Origin: an uncultured Shinella sp.
GTDB taxonomy: Bacteria; Pseudomonadota; Alphaproteobacteria; Rhizobiales; Rhizobiaceae
Direction: 5' to 3'
Assembly (NCBI GenBank): GCA_946481465.1
Contig: CAMLOC010000201.1
Location: 1-6,842, forward strand
DNA length: 6,842 nucleotides
Each line of letters opens with the position of its first letter. The first letter of the stretch is position 1. Both the position numbers and the translations under genes were made by a program. This document shows, piece after piece, positions 3,412 to 6,841 of the stretch. The notes beneath the pieces are model-generated. The model was not told the origin of the DNA, searched no databases, and saw nothing but the letters and a program-made list of their open reading frames with translations.

Positions 3412-5001
3412 ATGCGCTTTCTTCCCGTCAGCCTGACCACCATCCTCGTCGAGCTTGCCGATCTCGACGAGACGCTCGCCCTCTTTGCCGCGCTCACGGC
3501 CGATCCGATCGACGGCATCGAGGAGATGGTGCCGGCCGCGCGCACGCTGATGATCCGCTTCCGCCCCGAAAAGGTGGCGGCGGAGGATCTTTCGGCCCGG
3601 ATCAGCACCCGCGACCTTTCGGCGAAGGTCGCCCCGTCGGAGCATCTGGTCGAAATTCCCGTGCGCTATGACGGCGAGGACCTGCGCGACGTCGCCGATT
3701 TGACCGGCCTCAGCGTCGAGGAAGTCGTGCGCCGGCATACGGAAAGCGAATTCACCGTGGCCTTCTGCGGCTTCGCGCCGGGTTTCGGCTACCTCGTCGG
3801 CGGCGATCCGGCCTTGCATGTGCCGCGCCGCAAGAGCCCGCGCACCCGCATTCCGGCCGGCTCGGTCGCTCTTGCGGGCGCCTTCAGCGGCGTCTACCCG
3901 CAGGCGAGCCCCGGCGGCTGGCAGATCATCGGCACGACGCCGGTCAGGATGTGGGACATCGACCGCCAGCCCGGCGCGCTGTTCCAGCCCGGCTATCGCG
4001 TGCGCTTCTTCGACATGGAGGCCGCGGGCCGGACGGTCAGCATTCCCGAACCGGCCGTCAAGGCGGATCGCACCGTCGCGGCGGACGCGCCGCAGTTCAG
4101 GGTGCTGGCCGCGCCCATGCCGGCTGTCTTCCAGGATCTCGGCCGTTTCGGCCAGACGGGGCAGGGCGTTTCCGCTTCCGGCGCGCTGGACCGCACCGCC
4201 TTCAACGCCGCGGGGCGCATCGTCGGCAATCCGGCCAACACGCCGGCGCTCGAACTCACCCTCGGCGGCTTCTCCTTCGAAAGCACCGTGCGCGCCGTGA
4301 TCGGCCTTGCCGGCGCTGCCTGTCCCGTGACGGTCCGCGATGCGGACGGCCGCGCCCAAGACTTTTCGATCCTGCAGCCCATCGCGCTGGAGCCGGGCGA
4401 TGTCGTGACGATCGGCCATCCGAAGGCGGGCATGCGCGCCTATCTTGCCGTGCGCGGCGGCTTCGACGTTGCGCCGGTCCTCGGCAGCGCGGCGACCGAT
4501 ACGCTGGCCGTCGTCGGCCCCGAGCCTGTCACCGCCGGGTCGGTGCTGGCGCTTGGAAACAAGGCGGGGCTGGCGAGCGTCTCGACCGATGAACTCCCCG
4601 CTTTCGACCTGCCTTCGGCGGGCGACGTGGTGACGCTCGACGTGGTGCTCGGCCCCCGCACGGACTGGTTCACGCAGAAGGGCATCGAGACGCTGACGAG
4701 CCAGCTCTGGCAGGTCACGCCGCAATCGAGCCGCGTCGGCATCCGCCTTGCCGGCGAGGTGCCGCTGGAGCGCAAGGACAGCGCGGAACTGCCGAGCGAA
4801 GGCACCGCGACCGGCGCCATCCAGGTGCCGCACAGCGGCCAGCCGGTGCTCTTCCTCGCCGACCATCCGCTGACCGGCGGCTATCCCGTCATCGGCGCCG
4901 TTGCCGAATACCATCTGGACCTCGCCGGCCAGGTTCCGATCAACGCAAAGATCCGCTTCCGCCCGATCGGGCCCTTCGCCGACATTGCCGCGACCCGTTA
5001 G
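3412..5001 (+). CDS. pxpBC: Fused 5-oxoprolinase subunits PxpB-PxpC (KipI-KipA, AHS1-AHS2)
   Basis: A 529-residue fusion of two proteins that are separate in E. coli and Bacillus. Residues about 1-205 are PxpB/KipI (AHS1, CT_C_D fold): FCGFAPGFGYL (118-128), RRKSPRTRIPAGSVALAG (139-156) and YPQASPGGWQIIGTT (162-176). After a short linker (about 206-228), residues 229-521 are PxpC/KipA (AHS2, CT_A_B fold): QDLGRFGQTGQGVSASGALD (241-260), VGN (271-273), AYLAVRGG (343-350), TPQSSRVGIRLAG (436-448), EGTATGAIQVPHSGQPV (463-479) and DHPLTGGYPVI (484-494). Both halves appear intact. With PxpA it would hydrolyse 5-oxoproline to glutamate using ATP. The same two folds form the carboxyltransferase part of urea carboxylase, there in the opposite order, which explains database names such as urea amidolyase family. 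The predicted start is the ATG at 3412, seven bases after the upstream stop. The TAG stop at 4999-5001 falls at the edge of a RIME-like repeat. Confidence 0.95.
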   Translation: MRFLPVSLTTILVELADLDETLALFAALTADPIDGIEEMVPAARTLMIRFRPEKVAAEDLSARISTRDLSAKVAPSEHLVEIPVRYDGEDLRDVADLTGLSVEEVVRRHTESEFTVAFCGFAPGFGYLVGGDPALHVPRRKSPRTRIPAGSVALAGAFSGVYPQASPGGWQIIGTTPVRMWDIDRQPGALFQPGYRVRFFDMEAAGRTVSIPEPAVKADRTVAADAPQFRVLAAPMPAVFQDLGRFGQTGQGVSASGALDRTAFNAAGRIVGNPANTPALELTLGGFSFESTVRAVIGLAGAACPVTVRDADGRAQDFSILQPIALEPGDVVTIGHPKAGMRAYLAVRGGFDVAPVLGSAATDTLAVVGPEPVTAGSVLALGNKAGLASVSTDELPAFDLPSAGDVVTLDVVLGPRTDWFTQKGIETLTSQLWQVTPQSSRVGIRLAGEVPLERKDSAELPSEGTATGAIQVPHSGQPVLFLADHPLTGGYPVIGAVAEYHLDLAGQVPINAKIRFRPIGPFADIAATR

Positions 5002-5002
5002 A

Positions 5003-5035
5003 GCGCTTTCGCTTTTCCCTGAAACGCGAAAGCGC
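5003..5035 (+). other. Left hairpin of the RIME-like element
   Basis: GCGCTTTCGC (5003-5012) pairs perfectly with GCGAAAGCGC (5026-5035). Inside, after one mismatch, TTTC (5014-5017) pairs with GAAA (5021-5024) around a three-base loop, giving 14 pairs in total. In the transcript this is a very stable stem just after the pxpBC stop codon. It is followed only after eight bases by a broken T run (5043-5051), so it is not a typical intrinsic terminator. It may protect the 3' end of the upstream message or cause partial termination. Confidence 0.75.
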
Positions 5036-5050
5036 CCTGTCCTTTTGTTT

Positions 5051-5102
5051 TAACGCAATTCCGGACGCAAAACCGCTCCGCACTTTTGCAGGAATTGCTT
5101 TA
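5051..5102 (+). other. Right hairpin of the RIME-like element, abutting the next ribosome binding site
   Basis: GCAATTCC (5055-5062) pairs with GGAATTGC (5091-5098), and beyond one mismatch TAA (5051-5053) pairs with TTA (5100-5102). An inner stem forms between GCAAAA (5067-5072) and TTTTGC (5084-5089) around an 11-base loop. The outer stem ends at the base before the GGAG Shine-Dalgarno (5103-5106) of the biotin carboxylase gene, so folding could alter ribosome access. Any regulatory effect is inference. Confidence 0.7.
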
Positions 5103-5113
5103 GGAGAACCGTC

Positions 5114-6841
5114 ATGAAGAAAGTGCTGATTGCCAATCGTGGCGAGATCGCCGTGCGCATCGTGCGCGCCTGCCGCGACCACGGCCTCCAGTCGGTCGCC
5201 GTCTATGCCGATCCGGATGCGGATGCGCTGTTCGTGCGCCTCGCCGACGAAGCCTACGGGCTCGAAGGCGTGCGCCCGGCGGAAACCTATCTCGATATCG
5301 AGAAGCTGATCGCGGTCGCGAAAAGGGCCGGTGCCGATGCGGTCCATCCGGGCTACGGCTTCCTTTCCGAGCGCGCCGAATTCGCGCGCGCCGTGCAGGG
5401 CGCGGGCCTTATCTGGATCGGCCCCGATCCGTCCGTCATCGAGGCGCTCGGCGACAAGGTCGAGGCACGGCGCATCGCGCAGGGCGTCGGCGCACCGCTG
5501 GTTGCCGGCAGCGACGGCCCGGTATCCTCGGCCGCCGAGGTCGTCGCGTTTGCGGAAAAGCACGGCCTGCCGGTCGCCATCAAGGCGGCGCATGGCGGCG
5601 GCGGGCGCGGGCTCAAGGTGGCCTGGAAGATGGAGGAGGTCGCCGACCTCTACGAATCCGCCGTGCGCGAGGCGACGGCGGCCTTCGGCCGGGGCGAATG
5701 CTTCCTCGAACGCTTCCTCGACCGGCCGCGCCATATCGAGGCGCAGGTCCTTGCCGACAAGCACGGGAATGTGCTGGTGCTCGGCACCCGCGATTGCTCG
5801 GCCCAGCGTCGTAACCAGAAGCTCATCGAGGAGGCCCCGGCGCCCTTCCTCTCGGACGAGCAGCGCCGGAAGATCCACGCCGCCGCAAAGGCGATCTGCG
5901 CCGCCGCCGGCTATTCCGGCGCGGGCACGGTGGAGTTCCTGCTCGGCGTCGACGGCACGATCTCCTTCCTCGAGGTGAACACCCGCCTGCAGGTCGAGCA
6001 TCCCGTTACGGAAGAGACGACCGGCATCGACCTCGTCATCGAGCAGTTCCGCATCGCCGAGGGCCTGCCGCTGCGTGTGCTGGAAACGCCGGAACCGCGC
6101 GGCCATTCCATCGAGTTCCGCATCAATGCGGAGGATCCCGGCCGCGGCTTCCTGCCGACACCCGGCGCCATCACCGTCTTCGATCCGCCGTCCGGCCCCG
6201 GCGTGCGCCTCGACAGCGGCGTCGTCAGCGGCTCCACCGTGCCCGGCGTCTTCGATTCGCTCGTCGCCAAGCTGATCGTGACCGGCGCGACGCGCGAGGA
6301 GGCCCTGCGCCGCGCCCGCCGGGCGCTGAAGGAGTTCCGCATCGAGGGCGTCGCGACGGTCCTGCCGTTCCACCGCGCCGCCATCGACACGGCGGATTTC
6401 ATCGGCACGGACGGCTTCAAGGTGCATACCCGGTGGATCGAGACCGATTTCGCGGCCATGCCGGAGGCCATGGCCCGGCCCGAGCCCGTCGAGGACCCGA
6501 CGCTGGTGCGCACCCATCTCGAAATCGACGGCAGGCGCGTGTCGCTCGCCCTGCCGAGCCTGCTCCTCGCCGGCCTCGGCGCGGCCGGGCAGGGTGCGGC
6601 CGCTGCCGGCAAGGGTGGCAAGCCCGCCGAGGACGGCATCGCCGCCCCGGTTTCCGGCACGCTGCAGGCCTTCAAGGTCGCCGATGGCGCGAAGGTCGCG
6701 GAAGGCGACCTGGTGGCCGTGATGGAGGCGATGAAGATGGAAACGCAGGTCCTCGCCCCCAAGGCCGGCATCCTTCGCCTGCGCGTCAAGGAAGGCGACT
6801 ACCTTCAGGCGGGCGACACGCTGATGGTGTTCGAAGGCTGA
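5114..6841 (+). CDS. Biotin carboxylase-BCCP fusion (acetyl-CoA carboxylase-like alpha subunit)
   Basis: A 575-residue cytoplasmic protein. Residues 1 to about 445 are a complete biotin carboxylase: RGEIAVRIVRAC (9-20), HPGYGFLSE (78-86), ATP-grasp loop GGGGRG (161-166), RDCSAQRR (226-233), Mg/ATP ligand region with E274 and E287, NTRLQVEHPVTE (289-300) and RINAEDP (336-342). A linker of about 60 residues, Ala/Gly-rich at 487-503, leads to a biotinyl domain (about 508-574) with EAMKMET (538-544), where K541 is the biotin site. It would carboxylate its own biotin using ATP and bicarbonate. It is shorter than propionyl- or methylcrotonyl-CoA carboxylase alpha subunits because the roughly 130-residue BT domain is missing. 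AGGAGAA at 5102-5108 supports the ATG. No AccA/AccD-type carboxyltransferase lies in the window; the only candidate partner is PxpBC. Housekeeping accC is normally paired with a separate accB, so this is an accessory, pathway-specific copy. The TGA stop at 6839-6841 is inside the window. Confidence 0.94.
   Translation: MKKVLIANRGEIAVRIVRACRDHGLQSVAVYADPDADALFVRLADEAYGLEGVRPAETYLDIEKLIAVAKRAGADAVHPGYGFLSERAEFARAVQGAGLIWIGPDPSVIEALGDKVEARRIAQGVGAPLVAGSDGPVSSAAEVVAFAEKHGLPVAIKAAHGGGGRGLKVAWKMEEVADLYESAVREATAAFGRGECFLERFLDRPRHIEAQVLADKHGNVLVLGTRDCSAQRRNQKLIEEAPAPFLSDEQRRKIHAAAKAICAAAGYSGAGTVEFLLGVDGTISFLEVNTRLQVEHPVTEETTGIDLVIEQFRIAEGLPLRVLETPEPRGHSIEFRINAEDPGRGFLPTPGAITVFDPPSGPGVRLDSGVVSGSTVPGVFDSLVAKLIVTGATREEALRRARRALKEFRIEGVATVLPFHRAAIDTADFIGTDGFKVHTRWIETDFAAMPEAMARPEPVEDPTLVRTHLEIDGRRVSLALPSLLLAGLGAAGQGAAAAGKGGKPAEDGIAAPVSGTLQAFKVADGAKVAEGDLVAVMEAMKMETQVLAPKAGILRLRVKEGDYLQAGDTLMVFEG

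Follow-up and report, generated by a model that had tools for sequence, protein, structure and literature searches.

The 6,842 nucleotides of DNA analysed here (the window) are positions 1 to 6,842 of contig CAMLOC010000201.1, from assembly GCA_946481465.1 of an uncultured Shinella sp. They hold an operon that encodes, in this order, an Nramp-family transporter, PxpA, a D-glutamate cyclase, a PxpBC fusion and a biotin carboxylase joined to a biotin carboxyl carrier protein (BC-BCCP). PxpA, AHS1 and AHS2, the parts of the 5-oxoprolinase PxpABC, are all present in this one operon. To our knowledge, how PxpABC couples ATP to the opening of a lactam is not settled. On sequence comparison, PxpBC and BC-BCCP probably form a permuted enzyme of two chains, related to urea carboxylase, within a 5-oxoproline (pyroglutamate) operon, and we give this reading a rough probability of 0.6. 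The system is, judged by its domains, a variant of the AHS-type biotin-dependent carboxylases, a known kind of enzyme. Statements drawn from papers cited below by PMC number rest on the available parts of those papers.

The operon and its carboxylase-like proteins

In PxpBC, Pfam places CT_C_D (AHS1, E 5.9e-68) ahead of CT_A_B (AHS2, E 2.1e-81), while BC-BCCP contains Biotin_carb_N, CPSase_L_D2, Biotin_carb_C and Biotin_lipoyl. The latter protein is complete, its stop codon lying inside the window. Its biotinyl site, EAMKMET, carries the lysine K541 at 34 residues from the C-terminus, and the EAMKME portion is invariant in all 11 aligned sequences. The original prediction had read an AHS1 and an AHS2 domain in PxpBC, and a biotin carboxylase with an intact biotinyl site in the last gene, and both readings are borne out. 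Three BC motifs of BC-BCCP, the glycine-rich loop, EVNTRLQVEH and RIN, can be aligned uninterrupted with the PDB chains of AccA3 and 5mlk. These are also the closest solved chains (720 bits for AccA3 and 721 for 5mlk, with the next at 461). The PDB names 5mlk an acetyl-CoA carboxylase, and we take it to be AccBC of C. glutamicum. The fusion of BC and BCCP, together with the presence of the biotinyl lysine, agrees with the AccA3/AccBC type. The nearest solved chains to PxpBC are TTHA0988 (3oep) and MSMEG_0435-0436 (3mml, 9yx5).

Table 1. Features of the window, with positions counted from its first nucleotide
Feature	Positions	Strand	Basis
Divergent GntR regulator, truncated at the left window end	3..413	-	GntR-FCD in S. 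granuli
Nramp-family transporter	529..1794	+	Pfam PF01566
PxpA (LamB/YcsF, LamB_YcsF), proposed ring-opening hydrolase	1816..2583	+	NCBIfam NF003814 above cut-off
D-glutamate cyclase family (DUF1445)	2595..3404	+	Pfam PF07286; NCBIfam NF003969 above cut-off
PxpBC fusion, 529 aa: AHS1/KipI (CT_C_D) then AHS2/KipA (CT_A_B)	3412..5001	+	Pfam
Stretch separating pxpBC from BC-BCCP, ~100 bp, containing two inverted repeats	5000..5102	none	
BC-BCCP, 575 aa, AccA3/AccBC type, C-terminal biotinyl domain	5114..6841	+	Pfam, NCBIfam

Urea carboxylase (TIGR02712; K. lactis 3va7, 5i8i) combines the same four domains, BC, AHS2, AHS1 and BCCP, and a separate hydrolase finishes its reaction. In the window, by contrast, the domains are divided between two chains, AHS1-AHS2 and BC-BCCP, and the hydrolase would be PxpA instead of allophanate hydrolase. 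All five Pseudomonadota urea carboxylases that were opened read BC-AHS2-AHS1-BCCP, and the AHS order of the window is indeed reversed relative to them, as had been predicted. Scored apart, the two window chains give 504.5 and 153.6 bits against TIGR02712, whose cut-off is 1303.85. With the PxpABC 5-oxoprolinases (E. coli YbgJKL, B. subtilis YcsF-KipI-KipA) the window shares PxpA, AHS1 and AHS2; it differs in the fusion of PxpBC and in the dedicated BC-BCCP of the operon. B. subtilis YcsI is presumably a DUF1445 protein. The ycsFGI-kipIA operon of that organism has D-glutamate cyclase and Nramp neighbours, as the window does (PMC3412718, PMC10448178).

The five complete proteins of the operon are 94-98% identical to their counterparts in Shinella granuli, S. 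yambaruensis and Shinella sp. SUS2. The gap between pxpBC and the BC-BCCP gene measures 112 bp in the window versus 10 bp in S. granuli, and parts of the inverted-repeat stretch recur at seven other loci with 88-96% identity. The Nramp gene may supply PxpA or other metal needs, and its counterpart YcsG, a member of the B. subtilis pxp operon, has been shown to be a Mn2+ importer (PMC10448178). Several open reading frames scanned with Pfam gave no match and are probably antisense frames.

Linkage, shared history and natural fusions

The original prediction had proposed a survey of genomes for the co-occurrence of BC-BCCP and pxpBC, and such a survey shows the two together far more often than expected. 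A draw of 150 Pseudomonadota genomes contained 58 with AHS2 and 82 matches, from which 26 frames of urea-carboxylase size (5 of them opened) and one contig-end fragment (G005) were set aside, leaving 55 loci. Linkage was defined as both BC and BCCP at no more than 7 kb from the AHS2 locus; the PF02785 search for BC listed 150 matches, and linkage was therefore taken from fetched regions. By this measure 16/55 loci are linked, where 0.64 BC neighbours would be expected from genome sizes and BC counts (formal probability 1.6e-18, with shared ancestry ignored). An actinobacterial draw of 80 genomes, 20 of them with AHS2, gave 24 matches; two full urea carboxylases and two urea-carboxylase-like AHS2-AHS1 proteins without BC were set aside. 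Seven of the remaining 20 loci have BC and BCCP, and one more (L168) has BCCP only and is counted apart, its contig terminating before any BC. Among 79 named relatives, BC lies directly downstream of PxpBC in 75. As an observation apart, the actinobacterial L163 and L171 hold urea-carboxylase-like AHS2-AHS1 frames of 705 and 793 residues; the regions fetched around them contained neither BC nor BCCP, and these proteins may rely on a shared alpha subunit instead.

The linked loci come in several arrangements. Separate accB-accC genes lead directly into pxpB-pxpC at eight of the 16 Pseudomonadota loci, with pxpA before them in five and after them in three; at seven others pxpBC or pxpB-pxpC leads directly into a fused BC-BCCP, and at the last (L101) BC and BCCP are on the opposite strand. 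The order is pxpA-accB-accC-pxpB-pxpC at the five loci of clade IIa and accB-accC-pxpB-pxpC-pxpA at L013, L121 and L128. The window type, which comprises the window and seven surveyed loci, has pxpA, pxpBC or pxpB-pxpC and a fused BC-BCCP; some members also have the cyclase. One actinobacterial locus (L182) is arranged like it, and three others from that phylum read pxpB-pxpC-accB-accC-cyclase-pxpA. In S. aureus, a third phylum, a six-gene operon holds the same parts (pxpB, pxpC, pxpA, accB and accC), BC and BCCP being separate genes there, and has been read partly as fatty acid synthesis (PMC11315280). An extra copy of BC and BCCP and the genes pxpB/pxpC both distinguish Lactiplantibacillus pentosus from L. 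plantarum; in the available parts of that paper the authors do not link the two, and interpret the extra copy as lipid metabolism (PMC12427679).

The AHS and BC proteins also appear to have travelled together. Their distances correlate at r=0.917 across 23 linked loci, a value reached in 0 of 9999 permutations, and the BC-linked loci are spread over several distinct regions of the AHS tree. The history of the species alone is insufficient to explain this agreement, because the three loci of one genome, that of S. granuli (G001), sit in three clades on both trees. The BC-BCCP of the window groups with actinobacterial fused BC-BCCP proteins.

Moreover, relatives of the two proteins occur naturally as one chain. 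When the window's two proteins were joined and used as a query, the best 120 of 436 proteins above threshold included nine single-chain fusions (P0121-P0129) of 1115-1191 residues, 51-54% identical to the query over 97-100% of its length; many of the remainder were PxpBC alone or urea carboxylases. The domain order is CT_C_D, CT_A_B, BC, Biotin_lipoyl (AHS1-AHS2-BC-BCCP) in all seven fusions scanned, which is the gene order of the window and is permuted relative to urea carboxylase, and AMKME and the BC motifs are kept in 9/9. One fusion (P0127) is named Corynebacterium pacaense and another comes from a metagenome-assembled genome (MAG) of Candidatus Avipropionibacterium; in a tree built from the AHS portion, seven of the nine branch at two positions within the clade of the window. 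A query with one fusion against 396 actinobacterial genomes returned no match covering both halves among the matches listed (E <=1e-150), and such single-chain fusions seem to be rare.

A conventional carboxyltransferase was sought with seeds of four types, MccB/PccB-kind and AccA/AccD seeds among them, and with Pfam PF01039, all with the same outcome. With the seeds, no such gene came up in the flanks fetched for the 79 named relatives, and positive controls were recovered; PF01039 matches four genes in G001, none on the contig of the operon, and occurs within 7 kb at 0/24 linked loci (16 Pseudomonadota and 8 actinobacterial, from 21 genomes). The accA/accD-like neighbour that the original prediction had named as the result that would speak against it is hence absent from the operon contig of G001 and from the fetched flanks of the 79 relatives. 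The one locus at which the seeds did find a PF01039-type carboxyltransferase adjoining is L130, a BC-free pxp locus from Pseudomonadota.

The BC matches listed for G001 comprise seven genes, three of which each adjoin one of its three AHS2 genes; of the other four, named from size and neighbours, two stand beside long PF01039 genes, one has the size of AccC and one that of pyruvate carboxylase. Five of the 21 genomes with linked loci (G039, G047, G176, G198 and G209) contain only two PF01039 matches apiece, both short and AccA/AccD-like, and, among the matches listed, two BC genes each, one of which adjoins the AHS pair. The only carboxyltransferase of its own for this second BC would therefore be the AHS pair, unless AccA/AccD is shared.

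Presumably, AccA3 of M. smegmatis works in acyl-CoA carboxylases, and its gene lies away from the MSMEG_0435-0436 pair. PDB entry 9yx5, released on 2025-11-26, is titled 'long chain acyl-CoA carboxylase complex from Mycobacterium smegmatis with MSMEG_0435-MSMEG_0436 bound' and, by its title and chain names, contains AccA3 and both AHS chains; no paper describing it was found in the literature searched. By analogy, an AHS pair of the kind in the window can bind a BC complex of this kind, the entry leaving the effect of binding unsaid. A homologous pair is thus seen on a complex with an AccA3-type BC-BCCP, whereas in the window BC-BCCP adjoins the AHS pair and has no PF01039 partner nearby.

Taken together, the linkage that recurs across several clades and both surveyed phyla, the fusions, the congruent trees, the lack of nearby PF01039 and the 9yx5 complex make BC-BCCP very probably the dedicated functional partner of PxpBC and not a stray component of an acetyl-CoA carboxylase, in keeping with the original prediction. 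The view that BC, BCCP and the AHS pair would act as one enzyme is supported by the fusions, the linkage and 9yx5.

The proposed reaction and its alternatives

In the reaction that we envisage, BC would use ATP and bicarbonate to carboxylate the biotin carried by its own BCCP domain, and the biotinyl arm would dock on the AHS1-AHS2 pair of PxpBC. PxpBC would then transfer the carboxyl group to a lactam amide, for which 5-oxoproline in its L or D form is the most likely candidate, and PxpA would hydrolyse the activated ring, after which the carbamate would lose CO2 to give glutamate. The D form is considered because the operon includes a D-glutamate cyclase, an activity that interconverts D-glutamate and 5-oxo-D-proline; its place beside PxpA points to 5-oxoproline, possibly in the D form. 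We infer that such carboxylation-driven opening of 5-oxoproline, with PxpA as the hydrolase, has about an even chance of being correct. Activation by carboxylation is not far-fetched: for caprolactamase, which belongs to a different family, the options discussed for lactam opening include carboxyphosphate and a carboxylated lactim (PMC8453981).

Several results weigh against the biotin-dependent reading. No BC lies nearby at 39/55 of the Pseudomonadota AHS2 loci, and neither BC nor BCCP at 12/20 of the actinobacterial ones; each of the 12 BC-unlinked actinobacterial genomes encodes a full-length BC-BCCP fusion at another site (48-65% identical), but such subunits are common in actinobacteria and their presence does not discriminate. 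Three proteobacterial MAGs, with assemblies of 1.8-2.6 Mb that may be incomplete, hold a sister PxpBC, 54-55% identical, that is not followed by a BC (in one case the contig stops at that point); the BC genes that they carry at other sites show 46-49% identity and are not of AccA3 type. PxpB and PxpC of the window both miss the oxoprolinase equivalogs (TIGR00370, 138.6 against a cut-off of 145.55; NF045499, 172.6 against 500). The congruence of the trees is, moreover, a sign of lasting pairing and not of contact, as co-inherited neighbour genes would give the same signal, and the pair in 9yx5, to go by the title, sits on an acyl-CoA carboxylase, where its binding could be regulatory. No activity data were found for the operon of the window. 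PxpABC of E. coli and B. subtilis, as the original prediction also stated, reportedly needs no biotin subunit, according to the 2017 PxpABC paper. As a separate observation, an accB-accC-like pair lies at 1-1135 of L090, about 5 kb upstream and on the other strand of a MAG pxp operon without a downstream BC.

The most direct difficulty concerns the general base. Urea receives its carboxyl group from biotin by way of the AHS-type carboxyltransferase domain of urea carboxylase, with Lys1605 (K. lactis numbering) as the probable general base (PMC5770610). The aligned position holds Lys in 5/5 urea carboxylases and 5/5 clade IIa loci, and Arg in 8/8 window-type loci, likewise in BC-free PxpB. The urea-carboxylase mechanism on which the original prediction was modelled finds no support at this residue, and the branch of the window must either handle proton transfer differently or act on another site. 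The predicted structure of PxpBC has a predicted local distance difference test (pLDDT) score of 74.5, but residues 138-170, the region equivalent to that of Lys1605, fall below 50 and the geometry was not read from them; the prediction for BC-BCCP was poor (pLDDT 49.5) and went unused. A second AHS1 site, with Phe or Tyr versus Gln, was considered as a marker of biotin use and rejected, as it marks clades and not BC linkage. The window has Phe there and most BC-free Pseudomonadota loci have Gln, yet Gln also occurs in the BC-linked L013, L101, L121, L128, L162, L164 and L166, and an aromatic residue in 12 actinobacterial loci without linked BC. One locus (L097) was excluded from one alignment for an in-frame stop. 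Clade IIa itself (L012, L102, L103, L106 and L109; pxpA-accB-accC-AHS1-AHS2) retains the general-base lysine and a GGYQ motif in AHS1, and is perhaps a biotin-dependent carboxylase for another amide.

How the same facts could be explained otherwise depends on which protein is given the leading part. PxpBC could open 5-oxoproline by its own ATP chemistry, with BC-BCCP as an accessory that tunes it or provides carboxyphosphate locally; that BC-free loci are the commoner, that three MAGs hold BC-free members of the clade of the window and that the AHS1 of the window shares its Arg with BC-free PxpB all fit this idea, which we nevertheless consider quite unlikely, given that BC-linked loci occur in several separate clades and that the full-chain fusions retain the biotinyl site. 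The substrate could instead be another cyclic amide, hydantoin-, pyrimidine- or caprolactam-like, that is carboxylated or opened in place of 5-oxoproline. The equivalog scores of PxpB and PxpC agree with this, and the three divergent systems of G001 suggest different substrates; PxpA, however, scores above its subfamily cut-off and the operon includes the D-glutamate cyclase, and we see such a substrate as unlikely.

The role of BC-BCCP could also be an ordinary one, that of an acyl-CoA carboxylase alpha subunit which is merely co-regulated and makes malonyl-CoA with a carboxyltransferase encoded elsewhere. Its nearest solved relatives (AccA3 and 5mlk) and its grouping with actinobacterial fused BC-BCCP proteins are what this would predict, and the S. 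aureus (PMC11315280) and L. pentosus (PMC12427679) authors favoured fatty acid synthesis and lipid metabolism, respectively, for such genes. Shared alpha subunits can be unlinked, and the absence of a nearby PF01039 gene lowers the probability of this role without excluding it. Yet that absence extends to all 24 linked loci, G001 already possesses an AccC-size gene as well as a BC beside both of its long PF01039 genes, and natural fusions unite this very BC with the AHS pair, all of which leaves the acyl-CoA carboxylase role improbable. It is more doubtful still that the AHS pair regulates biotin carboxylases or acts as a decoy for them, and is no carboxyltransferase at all. The position of the 9yx5 pair, as given in its title, and the naming of B. 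subtilis KipI as a kinase A inhibitor (PMC3412718) could be cited for it; however, no acyl-CoA carboxyltransferase is encoded alongside the AHS pair to be regulated in the regions searched at the linked loci, and the carboxyltransferase of urea carboxylase is this same domain pair (PMC5770610; Pfam domain names).

Meaning for the PxpABC family

Extending the two-chain, permuted urea carboxylase reading from the window to the family, it is possible, at somewhat less than even odds, that the name PxpABC covers two mechanisms. A widespread branch would be a biotin-dependent lactam carboxylase-hydrolase, a permuted urea carboxylase in which PxpA replaces allophanate hydrolase, and its forms would range from split operons through two chains to a single fused chain. 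Actinobacteria with Corynebacterium pxpABC or a pair of the M. smegmatis 0435-0436 type would borrow the shared AccA3/AccBC, tying the use of 5-oxoproline to biotin and fatty acid synthesis. C. glutamicum ATCC 13032 requires pxpTABC to grow on 5-oxoproline (PMC13274462). The available parts of the literature searched, which covered few subscription journals and no bioRxiv preprints, contained no statement of such a biotin-dependent PxpABC branch.

If true, the branch with a dedicated BC would provide, for part of the PxpABC family, a concrete answer to how ATP is coupled to lactam opening. Further, the accB/accC genes of S. aureus (PMC11315280) and L. pentosus (PMC12427679), as described in the available parts of those papers, would be reassigned from fatty acid synthesis, and there would be a reason for an AHS pair to bind the AccA3 complex in mycobacteria.

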